Below, one piece after another: positions 15,916 through 45,053 of a DNA stretch of 64,000 nt. Location: assembly GCF_002201535.1 (NCBI RefSeq), contig NZ_NIWW01000005.1, forward strand, positions 1-64,000, read 5' to 3'. The stretch's first letter is position 1, and every line of letters begins with the position of its first letter. A program made the position numbers and the translations under genes. The DNA comes from Lacimicrobium sp. SS2-24 (lineage in GTDB: Bacteria > Pseudomonadota > Gammaproteobacteria > Enterobacterales > Alteromonadaceae). A model generated the notes under the pieces. The model ran no database searches. It saw only the letters and a program-made list of their open reading frames with translations, and was not told the DNA's origin.

Positions 15916-18888
15916 ATGAAAACAACATTAGAGCACTTAAAGAAAAGGCCGTTAGTTCATGCAATTGGCTGCATTCTTGCCACCTCGTCGTTTGGTGTGA
16001 TGGCGCAGGAAACTGAGAATGAGGCGCCTGAAGCTGAAGCACAACAAGAGAGAATCGTTATCACGGGTTCACGTATCCGCAATGATGGTTTTGACCGAGC
16101 CCTACCAGTCGACGTGATCAGCGCTGACTCAGCGGTGGATCAAGGCATTGGTGATATCGGTGAGTTGCTGCGCAACTCTACGGTAGCAGCGGGTTCTCCT
16201 CAGGTCACTGCCGCAACATCAACGGCATTTGTTCAGGCCGGTGGTCAAGGTACTGAAACGCTGTCGTTACGGGGATTGGGTGCCAACCGTACACTGGTAC
16301 TGTTGAATGGACGTCGGGCAGGACCGGCAGGCACCCGTGGTGAAGTGTCTGCTTTTGACCTGAACGTATTGCCTCTGTCTGTTATCGACAGAGTGGAAAT
16401 TCTCAAAGATGGTGCGTCATCACTTTACGGCTCTGATGCAGTTGCCGGTGTTGTCAATATCATCACCAAAAAAGGGGATGGAGGTAACGTTGATGTGTCC
16501 TACTCCCAGCCACAGGAAGATGGTGGTGAACTGTTCAGAATAAACGGTACTTATGGCGCAGCTTTTGATCGCGGTTCATTCCGTATCACCGCTGACTATA
16601 AAAAGCAGAGTGAACTGAGAAAAGGTGACCGTGATTACTTCAAATGCGGTGAGCGGTATATTTTCGATCCTAACAGTGGCGAGCGCGTCGATCCGGTTGA
16701 TCCTCGTACCGGTGAATACCATTGTAATGATCTGCTCTGGGGCCATGTCTGGATTTATGACTACCAGGGTGAAGGCGGTAACGTTCCCTCAGGTGCGAAA
16801 GCCCAGTATGATTATGATGGTGACCTGGGGCAGTATATCCCCGGCTTTGCACAGGACCCCAGCAACCCTGATTACATGGTGACGCCGCCAGGTTGGTTCC
16901 CGGTCGCTTATGATCGTGCGTCTGATGCGGTTGCGAACGCGGATCATCCCTTCCAGGATCGTGAGTCACATGTACCAGAAACTGATATTACAACGGTTTT
17001 TGCTCAGGGCGACTATGATCTGACCGATACCACCTCAATGTATGCCGAAGCGCTGATGAGCCGTCGCACAACCAAAAGTAACAGCTATCGTCAGTACTGG
17101 AGCTATCTGTATAACGAAGACTTCTTTGCAGGTAGTTCTCTGAGTGAAGGCTGGACGGGTGCCCAATGGCTAAGTCCCACGCCAATTACGGATCACAGTG
17201 GTTCTGAAGTCGATATTGATTACCAGCGTTTTGTCCTGGGTATGACCGGTGATATTGGTACCTGGTATTGGGACGTGTCCTATCAGTACAGCCGCTCAGA
17301 GGGTGAGTACACAAACAAAGTTATCTTTGATGATGCTATCAGCCCGTATAACTTCGGAACGGGTTCTTGTGAAGGCACTGAAACGCCTGTACGTGGTGTT
17401 CCCTGTGTGGATGTCCCGTGGCTGGATCCGGACTTTTTAGCCGGCAACGTTTCTCCTGAAGTCAGGGCATTCCTGTTTGGTGAGGAAACCGGACGCACTA
17501 TCTACAAGCAGAGTACGCTGGAAGGTTTCGTTTCAGGTGATTTGTTTGAAATGCCGGCCGGACCCGTAGGGGTGGCGTTTGGTGCTCAGTACCAGAAAGA
17601 TGAGATCGAAGATGTACCAGGTGAGCATACTCTTGCCGGTAACATCTGGGGTGCCTCAACTGCAGGCATTACCGCTGGTGATGATGCGTCCTCTGCGATT
17701 TTTGGTGAAGCTCAGATTCCATTGTTGCGTGATGCCGCCATGGCTAAAATGCTTGATTTAACGCTTTCGGCACGATACACCGATGTTGATTCGTACGGCA
17801 GTGACACCACCTATAAAGTGGGTTTGAACTGGGAAATCGTTAATGGTTTCCGTATTCGTGCGTCACAGGGTACGTCTTTCCGCTCTCCAGCCCTGTTTGA
17901 GCTATACCTGGCCGATCAGCGCAGTTTTGCCGGACAACGTACGGTTGATCCCTGTATCCGTTGGGAGCAAAATCTTGCAGACGGATCAATATCTGAACAG
18001 ACTGCTCAAAACTGTGCTGCGGATGGCATTGCACCAGATTATGCCGGCGGGGCTATTTCTGCCGACGTTCTGACTGGTGGTGGAGCTGGTGTACTGGAGG
18101 CAGAAACCTCCGAAGCGACCACGATTGGCTTCGTCTGGCAGCCTGAATTCGCGGATTTGAGCGTGTCGGTGGATTACTTTGACTTCCTGATTGAAGACGA
18201 AGTGACTCAGTTAGGTGCATCGACGATTGTCAGGGAATGTTACGACTCTGATAATTTTTCCACTGAGCCGCTGTGTAATCAGTTTGACCGTAGCAGTGTA
18301 GATGGTCGTATCGAGCTGATTCGGGATAGCTTTATTAACGTTGCAACCCAGTCAAATAAGGGTTATGACATCAATATCACCTATCGTACAGATACGGATT
18401 ATGGTCAGTTAACACTGTCGACTCAGCATACCTTCCAGACCGAGTCTGAAGAGCGTCTGTTTGAAGACAGCGACATCGAAGACACCAATGGTGAGTTCGG
18501 TAATCCTGAGCATGTGGGTAACTTTAATGCCATCCTACAGCGCGATGACTGGACCTTTAACTGGAATGTGCGCTACGTCGGTGAAGTGTCAAACTATCTA
18601 AGTTATGGTAATGACGAGGAAGAGCGTTTCGATGCCACTTATCGTGGTGAAGAAGTGCGCGTGAAGTTGCATAACGACGGTGTCTTCTATCACGCATTCT
18701 CCGTTAATAAAGAGTTTGATGAAGGCTTAAGTGCGACCTTCGGTGTGGCGAATGCTTTCAATCAGAAGCCACCAAGAGTGACGACATTGAACCTTGGTGA
18801 ACTGAACACATCAGGAAACTCTGCGTTCTACAGTCAGTATGACTGGTTAGGTAGACGCTTCTTCCTGAATTTGTCTTACGATTTCTGA
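15916..18888 (+). CDS. TonB-dependent outer-membrane receptor
   Basis: A 990-residue receptor. A signal peptide (residues 1-30, cut after VMA) is followed by an acidic linker, a TonB-box-like ERIVITGSRI, the plug domain (about 45-180, with SLRGLGANRTLVLLNGRR and EILKDGASSLYGSDAVAGVVNI), and a barrel ending FFLNLSYDF with C-terminal Phe. The family imports large or scarce ligands using the proton motive force through TonB. The long barrel and plug resemble the oligosaccharide/peptide-type receptors of Alteromonadales and Xanthomonadales, but the ligand cannot be read from sequence. It heads a same-strand row with a sulfotransferase, halogenase and DUF418 protein. A terminator follows, so most transcripts may end after it. 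Confidence 0.93.
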   Translation: MKTTLEHLKKRPLVHAIGCILATSSFGVMAQETENEAPEAEAQQERIVITGSRIRNDGFDRALPVDVISADSAVDQGIGDIGELLRNSTVAAGSPQVTAATSTAFVQAGGQGTETLSLRGLGANRTLVLLNGRRAGPAGTRGEVSAFDLNVLPLSVIDRVEILKDGASSLYGSDAVAGVVNIITKKGDGGNVDVSYSQPQEDGGELFRINGTYGAAFDRGSFRITADYKKQSELRKGDRDYFKCGERYIFDPNSGERVDPVDPRTGEYHCNDLLWGHVWIYDYQGEGGNVPSGAKAQYDYDGDLGQYIPGFAQDPSNPDYMVTPPGWFPVAYDRASDAVANADHPFQDRESHVPETDITTVFAQGDYDLTDTTSMYAEALMSRRTTKSNSYRQYWSYLYNEDFFAGSSLSEGWTGAQWLSPTPITDHSGSEVDIDYQRFVLGMTGDIGTWYWDVSYQYSRSEGEYTNKVIFDDAISPYNFGTGSCEGTETPVRGVPCVDVPWLDPDFLAGNVSPEVRAFLFGEETGRTIYKQSTLEGFVSGDLFEMPAGPVGVAFGAQYQKDEIEDVPGEHTLAGNIWGASTAGITAGDDASSAIFGEAQIPLLRDAAMAKMLDLTLSARYTDVDSYGSDTTYKVGLNWEIVNGFRIRASQGTSFRSPALFELYLADQRSFAGQRTVDPCIRWEQNLADGSISEQTAQNCAADGIAPDYAGGAISADVLTGGGAGVLEAETSEATTIGFVWQPEFADLSVSVDYFDFLIEDEVTQLGASTIVRECYDSDNFSTEPLCNQFDRSSVDGRIELIRDSFINVATQSNKGYDINITYRTDTDYGQLTLSTQHTFQTESEERLFEDSDIEDTNGEFGNPEHVGNFNAILQRDDWTFNWNVRYVGEVSNYLSYGNDEEERFDATYRGEEVRVKLHNDGVFYHAFSVNKEFDEGLSATFGVANAFNQKPPRVTTLNLGELNTSGNSAFYSQYDWLGRRFFLNLSYDF

Positions 18889-18903
18889 TTAATCGTAATC
18901 AGG

Positions 18904-18930
18904 TAAAAGCCGACGCAAGTCGGCTTTTTT
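18904..18930 (+). terminator. Terminator after the TonB receptor
   Basis: AAAAGCCGAC / GTCGGCTTTT around a GCAA loop (18905-18928), followed by further T. It separates the receptor from the sulfotransferase gene. Confidence 0.9.
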
Positions 18931-18994
18931 ATTTTATACTGACCCGCGCACCTGTATTTATATAACTGCCATTGGATAACCAGAGAAGAGCAGC

Positions 18995-19783
18995 ATGCCC
19001 AGAGTTTTTGCAAAATCCGATAACCTGAATGAACTGAACCCTAAGTTTGAGCAACAACCTATAGCCCACCCGGTGTTTATCAATTCTGTGCCCAAGTGTG
19101 GTACCCATTTGTTGCGCAACATTTTCCGCATGTTTGTCCCGGTTACTCAGCAATATCACCATGACTTTATTCAGTTTCCGAATCTGCGCCAGCATTTGCA
19201 GGCGTTTGATCCCAAGCAGCCACAACTAAGCTGGGGACATTTGTTATTTTCCGATGAGTCTGCCAAGGCGCTCAAGCCAGTCAGACATCTTGTTATTGTC
19301 AGGGATCCCTATGATTGGGTGTTGGCCCGAGCAAGGTTTTTCCTATCCGACACCTTTCAGGGCTCAATGGAACACCTGAAAGATGGTGCGGTATCCATCG
19401 AAGAGATGCTCAATATGATGATCTTCGGTATTTATCAAAAAGCCCCCACGCTTCAGGAAATTTTCACCCACAATGCCGTTGCCTGGTTGGGCACCGGTGT
19501 CAAGTTGGTGAAATACGAACATGTGATCCGTCATTTAAAAGCGTTGGATACCACAGAGGCTGAAGCGTTCTTTTCCGATTTGCTCAGTATACTTGGCGTC
19601 TCTTCACTGCCCGACGACTGGCAGGATAGGATCCGTATTGGCTCCGATCGAAAACAGAGCGGCACCGCCAGAGAAAATCTCTCCGGTAATCAGGTCACAC
19701 TGCCTGATGAATTGCCTGATACGCAAAAGCAGCTGGTTGAATATGCTGCCCCCGGTCTGCGCCGGATCCTCGGCTACTATTAA
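18995..19783 (+). CDS. Sulfotransferase-fold protein in the halogenase locus
   Basis: A 262-residue PAPS-type sulfotransferase homologue. The 5'-phosphosulfate loop reads SVPKCGTHLLRN (31-42), and the 3'-phosphate motif VRDPYDWVLAR lies at 102-112. No signal peptide or membrane segment is seen, so it should act in the cytoplasm, moving sulfate from PAPS to an unidentified acceptor. It lies 18 bases before the halogenase on the same strand, so the two are almost certainly cotranscribed, which suggests both modify the same or related molecules. The acceptor is unknown. Confidence 0.82.
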   Translation: MPRVFAKSDNLNELNPKFEQQPIAHPVFINSVPKCGTHLLRNIFRMFVPVTQQYHHDFIQFPNLRQHLQAFDPKQPQLSWGHLLFSDESAKALKPVRHLVIVRDPYDWVLARARFFLSDTFQGSMEHLKDGAVSIEEMLNMMIFGIYQKAPTLQEIFTHNAVAWLGTGVKLVKYEHVIRHLKALDTTEAEAFFSDLLSILGVSSLPDDWQDRIRIGSDRKQSGTARENLSGNQVTLPDELPDTQKQLVEYAAPGLRRILGYY

Positions 19784-19801
19784 TCAAACGGATACCGGAA
19801 T

Positions 19802-21436
19802 ATGCAAAAGAGAAGAGTTGTTATTGTCGGCGGCGGATCCGCTGGTTGGATGGCTGCATCCTATTTGAATGGCGCGCTGAATAATCGAGGGAAAGACAAC
19901 AAAGTTGACATTCATTTGGTGGAATCACCCGACACGCCCAGAATCTCAGTCGGTGAGGCAACGATCCCATCTATGCGCCACTTGTTATCCGTGGTAGGCG
20001 TTGATGAAACCGAGTTTATGCAGGCGACAGAAGCGACCTTCAAGCAATCGATTAAATATACCAATTGGGTTCATAAGGATAACAGCTTTTATCATCATCC
20101 TTTCTCGCGGGCTCAGATCCATCCCCTGGACTACTCCGGACAGCGCTGGCTACAAAGTGATCAGAAGATCCCCTTTATGGAAACCTGCTCGGCTCAGCCG
20201 ATTATTTGTGAGATGGGCCTGGCCCCGCAAATGCTCGGCGAGTGGCGCATGGGCCAGCCACTGAGTTATGCCTATCATATGAATGCGCAGAAGTTTGCCG
20301 ATTACTTGCGTGATTTTTCTGTTGAACGGGGCGTTAAGCATACTCTGGCAAATATTGTTGAGGTAGAGCTCAGAGATAAAGATCATATTCGCTCAGTGAC
20401 GACGGACCAGGGGCAAACTCTTGAGGCTGACTTGTTTGTTGATTGCACTGGTTTTCGGGCCAGGCTGATTGAAAAGCAGCTCGGTGTAGGCTTTGAAGAT
20501 TGTTCCCAATGGTTGTTGTGTGACCGTGCCGTGACCATGCATGTGCCATACGATGAGTATTATCCTGGTCTGGTGCGGCCTTATACAACTGCCACAGCCT
20601 TATCCAATGGCTGGATTTGGGATATTCCGATGCAGTCCCGTCGCTCTATCGGGTATGTACACTCCAGTGCCTTTATCGACAAAGACGCCGCAGAGCAAGA
20701 GATGCGCGCGTATCAGGGCGGCAATACGGATAAGCTGGATGCTCGCTTCATTGATTTTAAAGTGGGGCGTCGCCACCGCACCTGGCATGGCAACTGTATC
20801 GCCATAGGTTTGTCCGGAGGCTTTATTGAGCCGTTGGAGTCCACAGGTTTGTATCTGAGCGATCTCGGTGCCGTGATGCTGGCAGAGCACTTCCCCTGGC
20901 AGGATGAAGGCATGGAAGTCCTGGCGACCCGCTATAATCGCCTGCTCAGTAACCGCTTTTATGAAATTCTCGATTTCATCAATATGCATTATTGTCTGAC
21001 CAAGCGCACCGATACCCCCTTCTGGCAGGAAGTGCAGAAGCCTGAAAGGATTAATCCCCGCTTGCAGGCAAAGCTGGATTTCTGGCGCATTAAGCCACCC
21101 AGTGCTTCGGATTTTGAGGACATGTGGATCCCGGGGCAGTCTATTTCACCGATGCCAGCAGCAATGACGGGGGGGGACCGACGTCCGCCGATTGACACCG
21201 CCGCGCTGTGGAATCACCAAAGCTACGAATGCATCTTGTACGGGATGAATTATCTGACCGAGGAGTGTGATAAGTGGTTCGGTGTTCAGCGCCCGCCCGC
21301 ACAGGTTCATCCCGCTATTTTGCAGCGATTAAAGATGGCAAAAACTAACCTACCGCCCCACGCCCACTGGTTGCAACAACGGTTAGGGATGGCGATGTAT
21401 TCGGGGGCGGTTAAGCCCGCCGGATGGGTGGCATAA
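19802..21436 (+). CDS. Flavin-dependent (tryptophan-type) halogenase
   Basis: A 544-residue FADH2-dependent halogenase homologue. It has the FAD motif GGGSAGWMAA at 10-19, the family signature WIWDIP at 271-276, a Lys at 81 (ATFKQSIKY) where PrnA has the haloamine Lys79, and Glu346 in FIEPLESTG, the same number as the PrnA catalytic base. These residues argue that it is active. Such enzymes need a flavin reductase, which is not in the window. Homologues often sit beside TonB receptors in Xanthomonadales, Caulobacterales and Alteromonadales, where free tryptophan is not a proven substrate. The product name is therefore family-level only. Confidence 0.9.
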   Translation: MQKRRVVIVGGGSAGWMAASYLNGALNNRGKDNKVDIHLVESPDTPRISVGEATIPSMRHLLSVVGVDETEFMQATEATFKQSIKYTNWVHKDNSFYHHPFSRAQIHPLDYSGQRWLQSDQKIPFMETCSAQPIICEMGLAPQMLGEWRMGQPLSYAYHMNAQKFADYLRDFSVERGVKHTLANIVEVELRDKDHIRSVTTDQGQTLEADLFVDCTGFRARLIEKQLGVGFEDCSQWLLCDRAVTMHVPYDEYYPGLVRPYTTATALSNGWIWDIPMQSRRSIGYVHSSAFIDKDAAEQEMRAYQGGNTDKLDARFIDFKVGRRHRTWHGNCIAIGLSGGFIEPLESTGLYLSDLGAVMLAEHFPWQDEGMEVLATRYNRLLSNRFYEILDFINMHYCLTKRTDTPFWQEVQKPERINPRLQAKLDFWRIKPPSASDFEDMWIPGQSISPMPAAMTGGDRRPPIDTAALWNHQSYECILYGMNYLTEECDKWFGVQRPPAQVHPAILQRLKMAKTNLPPHAHWLQQRLGMAMYSGAVKPAGWVA

Positions 21437-21519
21437 TAAGACAAGGTGCAACGTCTCAGGGAGCAGCTTAGGTGGCCAGCAGTCTGAATTGTTCAATAAG
21501 CGTTAAAAAAGCCTCATGG

Positions 21520-21553
21520 AGCGCACATTATCGCGTACATTGCGGTGTGCGCT
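21520..21553 (+). other. Hairpin in the leader of the DUF418 gene
   Basis: Perfect 8-base arms AGCGCACA (21520-21527) and TGTGCGCT (21546-21553) with an 18-base loop, 34 bases before ATG 21588. No T run follows, so it is not an intrinsic terminator. It may be an RNA processing or regulatory structure. Confidence 0.4.
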
Positions 21554-21587
21554 AAATAGGAAGCCGAAACTCAAAAAGGAAGAGAGC

Positions 21588-22838
21588 ATGACAGAAACAA
21601 CAACAGATCACACACCGGTCGGTGAAAATGAGCGCATCGTGCTGCTGGACGCCTTGCGGGGCTTTGCACTGCTGGGCATCTTGCTGATGAATATCGAATT
21701 TTTCCAGCGGCCGCTACAGGCAATCATGCTGGGTTTTGAGAGTGATCAGCAAGGCCTCGATTACATGGTGGCATGGTTTTCATTTACCTTTGTGCAGGGT
21801 AAGTTCTACACCCTGTTTTCTTTTTTGTTCGGACTTGGCTTTGTGGTGTTTATGGACAGAGCCGTACAAAAAACAACGCGGCCAAAGCGGCTATTTTTTC
21901 GCAGACTCCTGATCCTGCTTGTGATCGGTGTCGCCCATCTATTTCTGGTGTGGGGCGGCGATATACTCCATCTTTATGCCTTTCTGGGCTTAGTATTGAT
22001 GCTGTTCATCAACAGCCCCGCTAAAAGACTATGGAAGTGGGGCGTGTCCTTCTATTTCTTACTACCGGTGCTGATGCTTTGGCTGGGGGCGCTGGCCATA
22101 CAGGCGGCAATGAGCGAGCCTGAAGTGGCCGCGCAGATGCAGTCGGAATTTGAACAGGACAAGGTCAGTCTGCTTGCCGATGTCGCCCGGGGAGAAGCGA
22201 TTTATGCGGGCGGGGACTATTGGCAGGCGGTGCAATGGCGTATTGAAGAGTGGTATGCCATGTATCTGGATGGTGGATTGCTGTTCTTTGGGCCCATCAT
22301 TCTGGGCGCCTTTTTGATCGGTGCTGCCTTTGGCCGCCGCGGTGTGTTTTCTGATGTGTCGGCACATCGGGGACTGTTTAAACGTATGGTGTTGTGGGGA
22401 TATGGTGTGGGGCTGCCTGCCACACTTTACTGGGGGTATGCAGGCCGCGGTCTGGATATGCTCTACCCGACAATAGAGTATGCCGGGATGATCACCGTGA
22501 GTCAGATAGCGAATCTGGCCATGTGTCTGGCGTATATTGGTACGCTGTCGTTGTTGTTCTTACATGGCGCCAGATGGATTCACTACTTGGCTCCGGCCGG
22601 GCGGATGGCGCTGACCAATTACTTGCTGCAGTCTGTGGTCTTTACCATGTTGTTCTATGGCTATGGACTGGGACTTTACGGCGAGTATGGCCGCGCCGCA
22701 ACGACCCTGATGGCGGTGGTGTTTTACGCCCTGCAGCTATGGCTCAGTCACTTATGGTTACGGCGATTCCGTATGGGACCCATGGAGTGGTGCTGGCGCA
22801 CACTGACCTATGGTGAAATCAGATCCATTAAGCACTGA
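21588..22838 (+). CDS. DUF418 family inner-membrane protein (YeiB-like)
   Basis: A 416-residue polytopic protein. It opens with the family signature RIVLLDALRGFALLGILLMNI and has about ten hydrophobic segments, the conserved GKFYTLFSFLFGLGF loop, and a C-terminal DUF418 region with LAPAGRMALTNYLLQS and GPMEWCWRTLTYG. These proteins resemble membrane acyltransferases in outline but their chemistry is not established. I start at ATG 21588, with AAGGAAGAGAGC ahead, rather than 24 codons upstream inside the leader hairpin. The position after the halogenase on the same strand may mean a transport or modification role in the same pathway; this is inference. Confidence 0.85.
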   Translation: MTETTTDHTPVGENERIVLLDALRGFALLGILLMNIEFFQRPLQAIMLGFESDQQGLDYMVAWFSFTFVQGKFYTLFSFLFGLGFVVFMDRAVQKTTRPKRLFFRRLLILLVIGVAHLFLVWGGDILHLYAFLGLVLMLFINSPAKRLWKWGVSFYFLLPVLMLWLGALAIQAAMSEPEVAAQMQSEFEQDKVSLLADVARGEAIYAGGDYWQAVQWRIEEWYAMYLDGGLLFFGPIILGAFLIGAAFGRRGVFSDVSAHRGLFKRMVLWGYGVGLPATLYWGYAGRGLDMLYPTIEYAGMITVSQIANLAMCLAYIGTLSLLFLHGARWIHYLAPAGRMALTNYLLQSVVFTMLFYGYGLGLYGEYGRAATTLMAVVFYALQLWLSHLWLRRFRMGPMEWCWRTLTYGEIRSIKH

Positions 22839-39071: not shown

Positions 39072-40244
39072 ATGAATCAGGCGCAAGCATCACAACAATT
39101 ACAACAAGCTATTACCGCGCTACAACAGGGCCGCTCTCAGGAAGCTCGCTCTTTGTTCAACAGTGTCGTACAACAGGCTCCTCAGGCTGCGCAGGCCTGG
39201 TTAGGGCTGGCGTTCAGCTGCTCTAATCTGGGCGATAGTGAAGCGGCCATGGCCGCGATAGAGCGCTGTCTCAAGTTGGAACCCCGAAACATCAGGGCGC
39301 TGCTCTTTAAAGCTGAACAGCTGGAAAGCGCGGGTCAGAGTCGCAAGGCATTGCCGTTTTTCGAGGCTGCACTGAGTCTGGCTGCCAATATTCAGGAACC
39401 GCTACCCGGTGACATTCAAAAAGGGCTACAGCGTGCACAGCACCTGGCGGATAAATTCTCCGCAGAGTATGCCGACTTCCTCCTCGGTAAACTTAAAGAG
39501 AAAGGTTATCAGGCCGGTGACGCCAGTGACCGGTTTAATTTATCTTTGGACATTTGTCTGGGGCGCAAACAGATTTATCACCAGCAGCCCAATCGATTCT
39601 ACTTTCCTGGTCTGCCGCAGCGTCAGTTCTATGAGCGAGAGGAATTTGACTGGATTGAAGGCCTGGAAGCGCAGACAGACAGCATCAGAACAGAACTCAA
39701 GGGGTTATTGCAGTCACCCGAACGTTTTTCTCCCTATTTACAGTCTGATGCGGATATGCCGGAGATTAACGAATCCGGTAAGCACATCATTAACAACCCG
39801 GATTGGGGCGCTTTGTACCTATGGGAATACGGTCAGGTGGTTGAAGACAATGCCAGTGCCTGTCCATCCACCATGGCGGCAATGGAGCAAGTCCCTTTGC
39901 CGCACGTGAATAGTCAGACACCTATTGTGCTGTTCTCGCGGCTGGCGGCGAAGACTAGTATCCCGCCGCATCATGGTATGCTCAATACACGTCTCATCTG
40001 TCATTTGCCATTGATCGTGCCCAAAAACTGTGGCGCATTGCGCTGTGGTAGCGAGCAGCGAGAGTGGGTGGAAGGCCAGACCCTCATCTTTGATGACAGT
40101 ATCGAACATGAAGCCTGCAACAACAGTGACCAGGAGCGCATCGTGCTGTTATTTGATATCTGGCGGCCAGAGTTGAGTGAGGATGAAAGACGCCTCGTAA
40201 CCATGATGCTGGAGTCGGTAAAAGAATATCAAAGCGCGGAATAA
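39072..40244 (+). CDS. TPR plus aspartyl/asparaginyl beta-hydroxylase-like protein
   Basis: A 390-residue cytosolic protein. Residues 1-110 form TPR repeats (QAWLGLAFSCSNLGDSEAAMAAIERCLKLEP). The C-terminal half (about 170-375) matches the AspH dioxygenase fold, with the iron His in PPHHGMLNTRLICHLPL, the second His in DSIEHEACNNSDQERIVL and the nearby Arg for 2-oxoglutarate. These enzymes hydroxylate Asp or Asn in proteins or lipid headgroups. A TPR front suggests a protein substrate. It is the last gene of the row erpA-GST-hydroxylase. A hairpin follows. Confidence 0.87.
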   Translation: MNQAQASQQLQQAITALQQGRSQEARSLFNSVVQQAPQAAQAWLGLAFSCSNLGDSEAAMAAIERCLKLEPRNIRALLFKAEQLESAGQSRKALPFFEAALSLAANIQEPLPGDIQKGLQRAQHLADKFSAEYADFLLGKLKEKGYQAGDASDRFNLSLDICLGRKQIYHQQPNRFYFPGLPQRQFYEREEFDWIEGLEAQTDSIRTELKGLLQSPERFSPYLQSDADMPEINESGKHIINNPDWGALYLWEYGQVVEDNASACPSTMAAMEQVPLPHVNSQTPIVLFSRLAAKTSIPPHHGMLNTRLICHLPLIVPKNCGALRCGSEQREWVEGQTLIFDDSIEHEACNNSDQERIVLLFDIWRPELSEDERRLVTMMLESVKEYQSAE

Positions 40245-40503: not shown

Positions 40504-42741
40504 GTGAAAGTAAAAACATTAAACCCCGTCGTGGCTGCGACGCTACTGGCACTGGGTGCCACCGCGGCACAGGCGGCCAACGATCGCTATATCATTCACA
40601 TAGACAATAACGGTAAAGGGATCGTCAAAGCCCTGAGTAAACAGCTCGGTGGTAACATCGAAGTGGACTCTGATGGCTTTATTGCCGTGACCTTTGCCGG
40701 TAAAAGTCTGGATGAGGTCAAAGGGGTACTCAATAACCCTCACGTGAAATTAATTGAAGAGGATCAGATCCGCAAGCCCATGGCGCTGTATAATGATGAT
40801 CCGGGCAACCCGGAAATGGAGCAGCTGACCCCTTATGCGGTGTATCAGTCGCAGGCAAACCAGGTGGCGCTGCAAATGAGCAATGCCAAAAAGGTTTGTG
40901 TTATCGACTCGGGTATTGCCCGTGAGACCGGTGAAACCGGTGGCTATAATCCTGACTTTGACTGGAGCAGCATCACTGGTGATAGTGACTCGGGCACCGG
41001 CGACTGGTTCCGCGACGGTGGCCCTCATGGTACTCACGTTGCCGGTACGATTGCCGCTGCCGATAACTCCTACGGTGTGATTGGGATGGCACCGGGTAAC
41101 CCACTGCACATCATTAAGGTGTTTAACGATGCGGGCTGGGGATACTCCTCAGATCTGGCCCATGCGGCGAATAAGTGTAGCCAGGCGGGTGCTGAGATTA
41201 TCAGCATGAGCCTGGGTGGTGGTGCTGCCAACAGCACAGAAGAAAATGCGTTCCAGGCTTTTACTGACGCCGGTGGTCTGGTGGTTGCTGCAGCCGGTAA
41301 CGACGGTAACAGTGTGCGCTCCTATCCTGCCGGGTATTCTTCGGTGATGATGGTTGGCGCGAATGACGGCGATAACAATATTGCTGACTTTTCCCAATAT
41401 CCCAGCTGTGCATCAGGTGATGAGACAACCTGTGTGGAAGTGACGGCAGGAGGGGTCAATACCCTGTCCACCTATCCCTCAGGCGGCACATCCATTGCCA
41501 CCCTCAGTGCACAAGGCACCTCTTACCCAACCTCGGCGATGGAAAACTCCGGATTTGCCTCTGGTGAAACTTATTTTATGGGCACCGCAGAATCGATTGA
41601 CGCCGCAGCTAACGGTAAAATTTGTATGATCGATCGCGGCAATATCAGCTTCTATGACAAAGTGTCCAATTGTGAAAACTCTGGCGGGATTGGCGCGGTA
41701 ATTATTAATAACGAGGCCGGCGTGCTGCAAGGAACGTTAGGCACAGCCAATGACACCAGTATCCCGGCAGTGGGTGCGGCGCAGGAAGATCGTTCTGCCT
41801 TGCTGGCTGCCAGCAACGCCGAGATCAATCTTTCAGTCAGTGATTATGGTTATATGAGCGGTACCTCTATGGCCACACCGGCCGTGTCAGGTATGGCTGC
41901 ATTGGTATGGTCTAACCACCCTCAGTGCAGTGGCACCGAGATTCGTGAGGCCTTAAAAGCCACCGCCATGGATGCCGGCACGGAGGGTAAAGATCAGTAT
42001 TTCGGCTACGGTATTGTCAATGCACTGGATGCCGATAATTATCTGACTGCTAACGGGTGTGCGGGTTCCGGCGACGACGGCGGTAATACCGGCTCCGGCG
42101 GGCTTAACAACGGTGAAACGGTCAGTGATCTTTCCGCTGCGACCGGCTCCGAGACATTCTTTACCATCGAGGTGCCTGAAGGGGCAACGGATCTGGGCTT
42201 TGTCATGAACGGTGGAAGCGGTGATGCGGATCTTTATGTGAAATTCGGCTCCGCGCCCACCACTTCCAGCTATGATTGTCGCCCCTATCAGTCCGGTAAC
42301 AGTGAACGCTGTGATTTCAGTAGCCCTCAGGCCGGCACATACCACGTGATGATCCAGGCTTACAGTAGTTATAGCGGTGTAAGTCTGACGGCGAGCTACA
42401 GCGAAGGCAGTACCGGGGGTGGCAGCGGAGATGGATTGGCTAACGGTGAAACCGTCGGCGATCTCTCAGGCGCCAGACGTTCTGAGACCATACTGGAAAT
42501 GAATGTGCCGGCAGGAGCATCTAATCTGAGCTTTGTTATGAGTGGCGGCTCAGGCGATGCCGATCTGTACGTCAGGTTTGGTGCTGAGCCCACGACATCT
42601 AATTATGATTGTCGTCCGTATGAGTCGGGTAATAATGAACGTTGCGACTTCAGTAACCCTCAACAAGGTACCTACTACCTGATGATCCGCGGCTATCGGG
42701 CGTTTTCCGGCGTCAGTCTGACCGCAAGCTTTGATGAGTGA
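40504..42741 (+). CDS. Secreted S8 serine protease with two PPC domains
   Basis: A 745-residue subtilase. Signal peptide 1-25 (cut after AQA), inhibitor I9 propeptide 28-90, and catalytic Asp135 (VCVIDSG), His175 (HGTHVAGT) and Ser455 (GTSMATPAVSGM), with oxyanion Asn266. A PA-type insert occupies about 350-440. Two bacterial pre-peptidase C-terminal domains follow at 540-632 and 648-742, each with GGSGDADLYV and DCRPYxSGN. These are typically removed or bind surfaces after export through the type II system. It starts at GTG 40504, with AAGG ahead, the same arrangement as its neighbour paralogue. A terminator follows. Confidence 0.94.
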   Translation: MKVKTLNPVVAATLLALGATAAQAANDRYIIHIDNNGKGIVKALSKQLGGNIEVDSDGFIAVTFAGKSLDEVKGVLNNPHVKLIEEDQIRKPMALYNDDPGNPEMEQLTPYAVYQSQANQVALQMSNAKKVCVIDSGIARETGETGGYNPDFDWSSITGDSDSGTGDWFRDGGPHGTHVAGTIAAADNSYGVIGMAPGNPLHIIKVFNDAGWGYSSDLAHAANKCSQAGAEIISMSLGGGAANSTEENAFQAFTDAGGLVVAAAGNDGNSVRSYPAGYSSVMMVGANDGDNNIADFSQYPSCASGDETTCVEVTAGGVNTLSTYPSGGTSIATLSAQGTSYPTSAMENSGFASGETYFMGTAESIDAAANGKICMIDRGNISFYDKVSNCENSGGIGAVIINNEAGVLQGTLGTANDTSIPAVGAAQEDRSALLAASNAEINLSVSDYGYMSGTSMATPAVSGMAALVWSNHPQCSGTEIREALKATAMDAGTEGKDQYFGYGIVNALDADNYLTANGCAGSGDDGGNTGSGGLNNGETVSDLSAATGSETFFTIEVPEGATDLGFVMNGGSGDADLYVKFGSAPTTSSYDCRPYQSGNSERCDFSSPQAGTYHVMIQAYSSYSGVSLTASYSEGSTGGGSGDGLANGETVGDLSGARRSETILEMNVPAGASNLSFVMSGGSGDADLYVRFGAEPTTSNYDCRPYESGNNERCDFSNPQQGTYYLMIRGYRAFSGVSLTASFDE

Positions 42742-43020: not shown

Positions 43021-43181
43021 TATCGTCAAAGGCGATTGAAATTACATCCTGTTACATTTAGATTGGTTTGTACTTGGTCGATTTATAGTCGGCTTAAAGG
43101 TCTTATTCAGAATTAAATACAATAAAAATAAAATATTCTGAACTAAGTGCATTCCTATAATAAATGTTGAAGGTAGTAGAA
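43021..43181 (+). repeat. Upstream block duplicated ahead of both S8 protease genes (copy 2)
   Basis: Counterpart of 40344-40503 with substitutions and small indels. Shared words include GCGATTGAAA and TGTTACATTTAGATTGG. The offset between the copies is about 2.68 kb, equal to the distance between the two start codons. Confidence 0.75.
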
Positions 43182-45053
43182 GTGAAAACAAGAATTTTAA
43201 AACCCGTCGTCGCCGCCACCCTGATGGCACTGGGCAGTGCCTCCGCGCAGGCAGCCAATGATCGCTATATTATTCAGGTAGATAATAACGGTAAAGGCAT
43301 CGTCAAGGCCCTGAGTAAGCAGCTCGGTGGTAACATCGAAGTGGACTCCGATGGCTTTATTGCCGTGACCTTTGCCGGTAAAAGTCTGGATGAGGTCAAA
43401 GGGGTACTCAATAACCCTCACGTGAAATTAATTGAAGAGGATCAGCTGCGCAAACCCATGGCGCTGTACAATGATGATCCGGGCAACCCGGAAATGGAGC
43501 AGCTGACTCCTTATGCGGTGTATCAGTCGCAGGCAAACCAGGTGGCGCTGCAAATGAGCAATGCCAAAAAGGTTTGTGTTATCGACTCGGGTATTGCCCG
43601 TGAGACCGGTGAAACCGGTGGTTATAATCCTGACTTTGACTGGAACAGCATCACCGGTGACAGTGACTCGGGCACCGGCGACTGGTTCCGTGACGGTGGC
43701 CCTCATGGTACTCACGTTGCCGGTACGATTGCCGCTGCCGATAATTCCTATGGTGTGATTGGGATGGCACCGGGTAACCCGCTGCACATCATTAAGGTGT
43801 TTAACGATGCGGGCTGGGGATACTCCTCAGATCTGGCCCATGCCGCGAATAAGTGTAGCCAGGCGGGCGCTGAGATTATCAGCATGAGCCTCGGTGGTGG
43901 TGGTGCCAACAGCACCGAAGAGAATGCGTTCCAGGCATTTACTGACGCCGGTGGTCTGGTGGTCGCGGCTGCCGGTAACGACGGTAACAGTGTGCGCTCC
44001 TATCCTGCCGGGTATTCTTCGGTGATGATGATCGGCGCTAACGATGCTGACAACAATATTGCCGATTTTTCACAATATCCCAGCTGCAGTAGCGGCAGAG
44101 GAAAGCGCGCTACCACCGATGAAACGATCTGTGTGGAAGTCACCGCAGGGGGAGTGAACACCCTTTCTACGTATCCATCAGGAGGCGCGTCCATTGCCAG
44201 CATGAGTGCCGATGGTCTCGCGTATGCGACTTCTGCAATGGAGAACAATGGTTACGCTAATGCCCCTAACTATTTTATGGGTACGGCTGAAGCCATCGAT
44301 ACAGGTGCCAGTGGTAAGGTTTGTATGATTGACCGCGGCGCAATCAGCTTCTATGACAAAGTTGCAAACTGTGAAAACTCTGGCGGTGTCGGTGCCATTA
44401 TTATCAACAATGAGCCCGGAATGTTGTATGGAACACTCGGTGATACCAATGACACCAGTATTCCGGCGGTGGGCGCAGCTCAGGAAGATCGCTCGGCGTT
44501 ACTGGCAGCCTCAACGGCTGAGATCACGATTTCAGTCAGTGATTATGGTTATATGAGCGGTACCTCTATGGCCACACCGGCCGTGTCAGGTATGGCAGCG
44601 TTGGTATGGTCTAACCATCCTCAGTGCAGTGGCACCGAGATTCGTGAAGCCTTAAAAGCCACCGCCATGGATGCCGGAGCAGCTGGCAAAGATGATTTCT
44701 TTGGTTACGGTATCGTTAACGCCCTGGATGCGCACAACTACCTGACCACCAATGGTTGCGCTGGTGGCGATGGTGGCGACGGCGGTGATGGTGGCGACGG
44801 CGGCGACACTGGCAGTTTCGAATTAACGGCCAATGGTTATAAAGTCAAAGGCAGCCACATTGTCGACCTGAGCTGGTCCGGAGCCAGCAGCAGCAATGTG
44901 GATATCTTCCGCAATGGTGCGTTGGTAGCAACGACGACCAATAGTGGCAGTTACACTGACGCAACCGGCAATAAAGGCGGTGGTGTATATGACTATCAGG
45001 TCTGCGAATCAGGTACTGCAACCTGCTCTGTGACTATCAGTGTGGTCTTCTAA
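43182..45053 (+). CDS. Secreted S8 serine protease, paralogue with a different C-terminus
   Basis: A 623-residue subtilase and tandem paralogue of the preceding gene. Signal peptide, I9 propeptide and catalytic domain (VCVIDSG, HGTHVAGT, GTSMATPAVSGM) are nearly identical to its neighbour, often to the third codon position. The PA insert differs and carries an extra GRGKRATT segment near residue 310. In place of PPC domains there is a Gly-Gly-Asp linker and a 75-residue Ig/fibronectin-like domain (VDLSWSGASSSNVDIFRNG, YDYQVCESGTATCSVTI). I start at GTG 43182 by comparison with the paralogue; an ATG six codons upstream overlaps the ribosome site. Confidence 0.93.
   Translation: MKTRILKPVVAATLMALGSASAQAANDRYIIQVDNNGKGIVKALSKQLGGNIEVDSDGFIAVTFAGKSLDEVKGVLNNPHVKLIEEDQLRKPMALYNDDPGNPEMEQLTPYAVYQSQANQVALQMSNAKKVCVIDSGIARETGETGGYNPDFDWNSITGDSDSGTGDWFRDGGPHGTHVAGTIAAADNSYGVIGMAPGNPLHIIKVFNDAGWGYSSDLAHAANKCSQAGAEIISMSLGGGGANSTEENAFQAFTDAGGLVVAAAGNDGNSVRSYPAGYSSVMMIGANDADNNIADFSQYPSCSSGRGKRATTDETICVEVTAGGVNTLSTYPSGGASIASMSADGLAYATSAMENNGYANAPNYFMGTAEAIDTGASGKVCMIDRGAISFYDKVANCENSGGVGAIIINNEPGMLYGTLGDTNDTSIPAVGAAQEDRSALLAASTAEITISVSDYGYMSGTSMATPAVSGMAALVWSNHPQCSGTEIREALKATAMDAGAAGKDDFFGYGIVNALDAHNYLTTNGCAGGDGGDGGDGGDGGDTGSFELTANGYKVKGSHIVDLSWSGASSSNVDIFRNGALVATTTNSGSYTDATGNKGGGVYDYQVCESGTATCSVTISVVF
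44763..44807 (+). repeat. Five Gly-Gly-Asp codon repeats in the protease linker
   Basis: 45 bases made of five 9-base units, each encoding GGD with synonymous changes (GGTGGCGAT, GGTGGCGAC, GGCGGTGAT and so on). They form the flexible linker between the protease and its C-terminal domain. Confidence 0.95.

Follow-up and report, generated by a model that had tools for sequence, protein, structure and literature searches.

Downstream of a gene for a TonB-dependent receptor in Lacimicrobium sp. SS2-24 lie, on the same strand, genes for a sulfotransferase (ST), a flavin-dependent halogenase (HAL) and a DUF418/YeiB-like membrane protein, and the locus raises two questions: which of these genes belong together, and what would the two enzymes modify? 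The window, i.e., the whole stretch of DNA that was analysed, comprises 64,000 nucleotides (positions 1 to 64,000 of the forward strand of contig NZ_NIWW01000005.1). An initial annotation, made from the letters of the window, had described the four genes as standing in a row, and all four open reading frames (ORFs) were indeed found at the coordinates given below, each on the plus strand. On the first question, our sequence comparisons show that a receptor subfamily and a small ST of the 3'-phosphoadenosine 5'-phosphosulfate (PAPS) type have been kept together across alpha- and gammaproteobacteria.

The receptor and its sulfotransferase

The receptor gene (15916..18888, plus strand, 990 aa) is the partner to which both the ST and HAL are tied. 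Its product contains a Plug domain (PF07715) and a beta-barrel domain (PF00593), both above the Pfam cut-offs, and is thus a TonB-dependent receptor; its structural model has a mean predicted local distance difference test score (pLDDT) of 83.7, with BtuB (1nqe) as the best VIA-align match (Z 38.1, 2.8 A, 537 residues). The ST gene follows at 18995..19783 (plus strand, 262 aa). Relatives were sought in an order sample of 197 or 394 genomes, a phylum sample of 249 and a family-wide set of 149. At most two candidates per genome were scored for the receptor, three for HAL and five in the family-wide search, so further copies may be missed, and counts for loci of high guanine-plus-cytosine content rest on tblastn.

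When genome_contigs was scanned with the ST, 12 loci from gamma- and alphaproteobacteria were retrieved (58-81% identity), all 12 with a related receptor gene directly upstream and 3 with a HAL-clade gene following. The ST was present in 7 of 197 order genomes, at full length in six and as a weak match (26% identity) in the seventh, G038. Receptors of at least 52% identity were found in 16 of 394 order genomes, and another three genomes have receptors of lower identity (47-51%); every one of the 16 also holds an ST, and none of the three does. The ST gene stands next to the receptor gene in 15 of these 16 genomes, in G014 in convergent orientation, and on a different contig in the remaining genome, G668. 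That the ST has been kept even where it is unlinked or convergent suggests more than hitch-hiking in an operon. The genome G657 has the flanks of the window locus (purU, a short LigT match, HrpB and PBP1b) around a receptor and an ST, together with two extra ORFs, one of them an S9 peptidase, and without HAL or DUF418.

Clustering of all reading frames over 36 loci yielded the receptor in 36, the ST beside it in 35 and HAL in 14. The remaining large clusters, of 19 and 16 loci, contain frames antisense to the receptor gene, and the smaller ones, of at least four loci, comprise a TPR-sulfotransferase, an S9 peptidase and genes of a few loci each, mostly not identified. Over the 36 loci, with flanks of up to about 10 kb, no inner-membrane carrier, scaffold, biosynthetic or export gene recurred. 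The clustering therefore points to a core of receptor and ST, with HAL and the TPR-sulfotransferase as lineage options and DUF418 as a bystander. The DUF418/YeiB-like gene itself (21516..22838, plus strand; PF04235) had been counted as a member of the locus in the initial annotation, a membership that did not survive: the 13 other loci with HAL gave no match to it at 1e-8, and a four-gene operon including it is ruled out for that reason. By these counts, the ST tracks the receptor more closely than it tracks HAL, and the module proper is very probably an ST dedicated to this receptor.

The identification of the second gene as a PAPS-type sulfotransferase held, albeit as a distant one, on a match of fold and on residues of the PAPS site. 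On its own, the window ST matches nothing in Pfam or NCBIfam at E<=0.01; when the limit is loosened to E<=5, Sulfotransfer_1 is matched by 14 of the 17 members of the ST alignment, that of the window among them, with 1.1e-6 as the best E. Neither the single protein nor the profile identified a solved relative by sequence, the former retrieving nothing at E<=1 and the latter only five unrelated chains (E 0.29-0.65). The AlphaFold2 model of the ST (mean pLDDT 87.5) was matched to PAPS sulfotransferases by Foldseek, with a best E of 2.9e-6 (SULT1A3) and TM-scores of only 0.40-0.57 among the matches shown, and by VIA-align (SULT7A1, Z 13.0, 3.6 A, 212 residues; Teg12, Z 12.7; StaL, Z 12.3). Three residues, K34, H82 (in WGHLL) and R103, are invariant in all 17 ST sequences, and by analogy we take them to be the 5' phosphosulfate loop, the catalytic-type His and the 3' phosphate site, respectively. 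With the cytosolic SULT enzymes and the glycopeptide enzymes StaL and Teg12, then, the ST shares the fold and the PAPS-site motifs; it differs from them in its 11-18% identity in the structural alignments and in being tied to an outer-membrane receptor. From its predicted fold and conserved residues, the ST is a distant PAPS-type sulfotransferase with predicted sulfate transfer activity. No signal peptide was seen in it by eye, and APS kinase, which is required for PAPS, is encoded in the genome. Class-wide, 5 of 369 genomes matched the ST, at full length only in the window's own and weakly and partially in the other four, and no plasmid among 72,556 records matched it at E<=1e-10.

A receptor loop motif that follows the sulfotransferase

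Residues 275-283 of the window receptor (16738..16764, plus strand) read WGHVWIYDY, and this loop covaries with the presence of the ST. In a first alignment of 32 receptors, the 28 associated with an ST (27 beside it, plus that of G668) share the motif WG[HQ]x[WY]xYDY at these positions, and it is disrupted in the four ST-less relatives, which sit on a long branch nested within the tree. A DNA search with the strict motif, a pattern that demands YDY and would be escaped by YN variants, matched 6 of 197 order genomes, which are exactly the six holding a full-length ST and also the six holding a receptor of at least 52% identity. In the phylum sample of 249 genomes, the same pattern matched two, G863 and the genome of the window, with the ST unsearched in the others; G863, retrieved after its motif match, has the motif receptor followed by an ST (50% identity). 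A family-wide search around G863 gave 15 receptors in 14 of 149 genomes, eight of them linked to an ST (that of G863 included) and seven not, six of the seven being in genomes without any ST match and the seventh being a second receptor of G941.

With 47 receptors aligned, a relaxed motif, WG[HQ]x[WY]xY[D/N] (residues 275-282), is present in 36 of 36 ST-associated receptors and in 0 of 11 without a linked ST; five of the 36 have YN and lack the second Tyr. When all 975 alignment columns were ranked by how well they discriminate between the two groups, W275 and S420 came out best (each 36/36 versus 1/11), and H277, Y283, D272 and Y281 were also within the top ten. The receptor of G1066 is placed among the ST-linked receptors on the tree, and its genome has no ST match. 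This receptor departs at just 2 of the 121 columns that are invariant in all 36, I162V and Y281F, and the latter drops only the Tyr hydroxyl, as would be expected if sulfation had been lost.

The receptor model places the motif in a loop that joins strands 220-231 and 355-368; within this loop, residues 277-282 form a short strand. From the strand order of this model, we infer that the loop is extracellular, being the first long loop after strand 220-231.

The halogenase, other optional genes and expression layout

The third gene of the window locus, HAL (19802..21436, plus strand, 544 aa), is optional. It matches PF04820 with 460 bits against a cut-off of 21 and has Lys81, Glu346 and WIWDIP (271-276), which makes it a flavin-dependent halogenase; the initial annotation had pointed to these two residues, to the WxWxIP motif and to a gap of 18 bases between ST and HAL, and all of these were confirmed. 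In alignments that extend to residue 440, the best-scoring solved structures are 9lu2, 9ltb and those of the PyrH and PrnA types, with BrvH (6frl) scoring lower, and HAL shares merely 29-36% identity with the other five halogenases of its genome. Its clade is well set apart in the order sample (61-73% identity within it, 44% for the next relatives). Among the matches listed, 17 copies of at least 61% identity besides the window's own were found in 11 of 394 genomes; in all 11, HAL adjoins this receptor, and in six it is doubled, with the tandem halogenases overlapping in 4 of 6 loci.

Wherever the HAL clade was seen (14 of 14 loci), it stands next to this type of receptor, and in 13 of the 14 it lies directly 3' of the ST at a spacing of 0-107 bases, which together suggest that the genes belong together. 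In G668, receptor and HAL stand side by side (L066, 5631-10484) and the ST is on another contig, a pairing without an ST in between that may be taken as a sign that HAL follows the receptor. The pairing of ST and HAL proposed in the initial annotation thus stands as a matter of gene order and fails as an essential one, since HAL is present in only 14 of the 36 ST-associated receptor loci and the ST of G668 is unlinked from HAL; an obligate pair is ruled out. HAL is lacking from the flanks in 21 of the other loci, and the last, L022, is not judgeable, its sequence stopping about 440 bases past the ST. Among the matches listed, no HAL-clade member turned up for five of the order-sample genomes that have an ST. 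On the receptor tree, the presence of HAL requires five changes, at least four of them forced by well-supported branches. As far as these distributions indicate, HAL is a lineage option rather than part of the core, and it is found in some gammaproteobacteria. Among named carriers, Rheinheimera sp. A13L has an ST with no HAL seen, and Alishewanella longhuensis and Alteromonas sediminis have both. The conservation of the annotated genes in relatives therefore amounts to an ST that is kept, a HAL that is half kept and a DUF418 gene that is not.

One other family, f225, adds a TPR-sulfotransferase instead of HAL in seven of its eight loci, as the sequences show: a TPR-bearing Sulfotransfer_3 protein is encoded directly after the ST in L153-L158 and L160. 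These proteins are larger than the ST and different from it, with TPR repeats, and none is encoded in the window locus. Elsewhere, one is encoded 5' of the receptor gene in L101, and another lies close to the unlinked ST that G668 has in L105. The latter region (G668:C9:231000-250500) also has the unlinked ST amid four TonB-receptor-like ORFs of other subfamilies, without the loop motif. S9 peptidase genes are near the receptor in L067, L069 and L099 by Pfam, in L068, L070 and L071 by similarity, and weakly so in L156.

Between receptor and ST, a feature beyond the gene list of the initial annotation was found, an intrinsic-terminator-like hairpin at 18905..18928 (plus strand) with a perfect stem of 10 bp and, behind it, a T-rich tail. 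The count of such hairpins covered 25 of the 34 loci with receptor and ST on the same strand (left out were the eight f225 loci and L023); 20 of the 25 have a perfect stem of at least 8 bp, where mononucleotide shuffles would give 0.3. For L020 and L024, the stretch searched was shortened because the start codon had been set too far upstream, and L020 has a 12-bp stem once the longer stretch is taken. A general terminator scan of the region showed no excess (7 found versus 8.6 expected from shuffles), so it is the length of the stem and its recurrence in relatives, not the general scan, that make the hairpin credible. Such a hairpin between receptor and ST makes one simple four-gene operon unlikely. 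We regard it as a predicted partial terminator; in the likely layout, transcription would stop in part after the receptor gene, and a weakly expressed operon of the enzymes would follow.

The same genome has five further halogenases in three TonB-receptor loci, with SapC and cupin_8 genes. Of these sister loci, L075 (G000:C15:438500-457500) has a GH1 glycosidase, an MFS sugar carrier and LacI, and L077 (G000:C1:299000-318500) has a BadF-type kinase, a SIS protein, an amidohydrolase, MFS and LacI; judging by these neighbours, both look like sugar-utilisation loci. The third, L076 (G000:C17:198000-217500), has an alpha-amylase nearby and otherwise mixed neighbours. Separately, L078 (G000:C4:29000-46000) has two partial PF04820 matches within one ORF of about 412 aa in a long row of genes on one strand, and could, from gene sizes alone, be an aryl-polyene-type cluster.

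Candidate targets, related systems and other observations

What, then, would the enzymes act on? The initial annotation had suggested, as one option, a single molecule that would be both sulfated and halogenated. The covariation of the receptor with the ST points to the receptor or to its ligand-binding site, and we tentatively favour the receptor itself as the substrate of the ST, with its loop as the likeliest target. The ST would move sulfate from PAPS onto the Tyr of the motif, which in the window receptor is Tyr281, before the receptor precursor leaves the cytoplasm. HAL, where present, would halogenate the indole of Trp275 or of Trp279, which belong to the same cluster of aromatic residues, although we consider it rather unlikely that HAL acts on the loop Trp. 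The receptor would then be exported and, at the barrel mouth, would display its aromatic loop in modified form, by which ligand binding would be tuned, and the hairpin 3' of the receptor gene would hold the enzymes at catalytic rather than stoichiometric levels. Halogenases of this class require electron-rich aromatic rings, and two of the three sister loci look like loci for sugars, which have no aromatic ring, so that a protein target is attractive. Also counted in favour of the receptor as the substrate are the second type of sulfotransferase, with its protein-binding TPR repeats, that is encoded after the ST in seven of eight f225 loci, and the lack of a recurring carrier or scaffold gene together with the presence of APS kinase. 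The full picture, an outer-membrane receptor that carries sulfate on a loop Tyr and, in certain species, a halogen on a loop Trp as well, is one that we put forward with some doubt; by extension, the halogenases, SapC, cupin_8 and TPR-sulfotransferases beside other TonB receptors may modify receptors as well. If true, bacteria would have a new way to tune uptake across the outer membrane, and protein sulfation a new setting. A sulfotransferase tied to one receptor subfamily would be a second kind of modifying enzyme, with changes in the loop where the enzyme is missing.

A number of observations weigh against modification of the receptor. The covariation is not limited to the loop, since S420, T422, V492 and F745 outside it also covary with the ST, and F745 is probably in a short turn on the periplasmic side of the model; moreover, a shared ligand-binding site or common ancestry would give such covariation too. 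Only three independent ST contrasts are well supported on the tree, all agreeing (sign test p 0.25). The relaxed motif was worded after the sequences had been seen, one of the 11 comparison receptors (G941:C4) sits in a genome that does carry an ST, and 3 of the 11 retain the Tyr at 281 within an altered loop. Y281F is known from one genome, and each ST-associated receptor itself departs at 0-7 columns in which the others never vary. As for the enzymes, the comparison of receptors with and without HAL gave six weak columns, none of them a Trp, and no convincing covariation with HAL, and TPR-sulfotransferases are also found near two of the seven f225 receptors without an ST (L165 and L166). Finally, A111 is invariant in all 17 STs and aligns by eye to the Ser that we take to be carried by the 3' phosphate site of SULT enzymes, although we do not hold this Ser to be defining for the whole PAPS sulfotransferase superfamily.

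Another possibility, which we take seriously despite our doubts, is that an aromatic or phenolic ligand, perhaps derived from a peptide, enters through the receptor and is modified in the cytoplasm by the ST (and by HAL where present). The loop would then be a ligand contact, and its motif would be lost once the ligand and the ST were given up. The covarying positions 275-283, 420-422 and 492 are all extracellular by strand order, as they would be in a binding site; the nearest folds are those of the SULT enzymes, StaL and Teg12, which sulfate small phenols; and a peptide ligand would go well with the S9 peptidases encoded near several receptors. Nevertheless, an imported ligand sits poorly with the 36 loci, over which neither an inner-membrane carrier nor a scaffold gene recurs, with the two sister receptor-halogenase loci that look like sugar loci, and with G1066, in which Y281F leaves nearly all of the remaining conserved receptor unchanged.

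It is unlikely that the ST and HAL tailor a self-made secreted compound, such as a signal, pigment or metal chelator, which the receptor retrieves: sulfation and halogenation are typical tailoring steps and TonB receptors commonly retrieve self-made chelators, so general knowledge would favour such a scheme, but the biosynthetic or export gene that it calls for does not recur in the flanks surveyed. Least probable of all is that the enzymes act on some other protein (e.g., a partner in the periplasm or on the surface) or are regulators without catalytic activity, with which the receptor covaries indirectly, given that the receptor is the sole constant partner seen and that the Lys, catalytic-type His and Arg of the PAPS site never vary, even though the invariant Ala in place of the SULT Ser leaves catalysis putative.

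The action proposed for the ST on the receptor would resemble that in the RaxST-RaxX system of Xanthomonas, in which a cytoplasmic PAPS enzyme reportedly sulfates a Tyr next to acidic residues before export. The target here would be an integral receptor, whereas RaxX is a secreted peptide. Neighbourhoods of TonB receptors and flavin halogenases are already known, among them those of BrvH and Xcc4156 (receptor and halogenase, in cases followed by SapC and cupin_8), and the window locus is like them in having a TonB receptor beside a PF04820 halogenase; unlike in those neighbourhoods, the constant partner here is the sulfotransferase and not the halogenase. According to passages in the two reports, BrvH and Xcc4156 act on indole and not on free Trp, their native substrates are described as unknown, and their authors suggest larger or peptide substrates (PMC5945002, PMC7336383). 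Halogenase, sulfotransferase and SapC go without mention in PMC1790865, as do TonB, sulfotransferase and transporter in PMC8269204. Among the open-licence literature, no paper joining a TonB receptor, a sulfotransferase and a halogenase was found, those that mention tyrosine sulfation or a sulfotransferase alongside TonB-dependent receptors were unrelated by their titles, and the receptor-ST(-HAL) arrangement would be new; if the loop is modified, it would also be a new kind of receptor control.

Elsewhere in the window, 40504-42741 and 43164-45053 encode a tandem of secreted proteases, named subtilisin-like by eye, with 88.6% identity over 527 residues. The protein encoded at 39072, 5' of this pair, has by eye TPR repeats and an aspartyl/asparaginyl hydroxylase domain.

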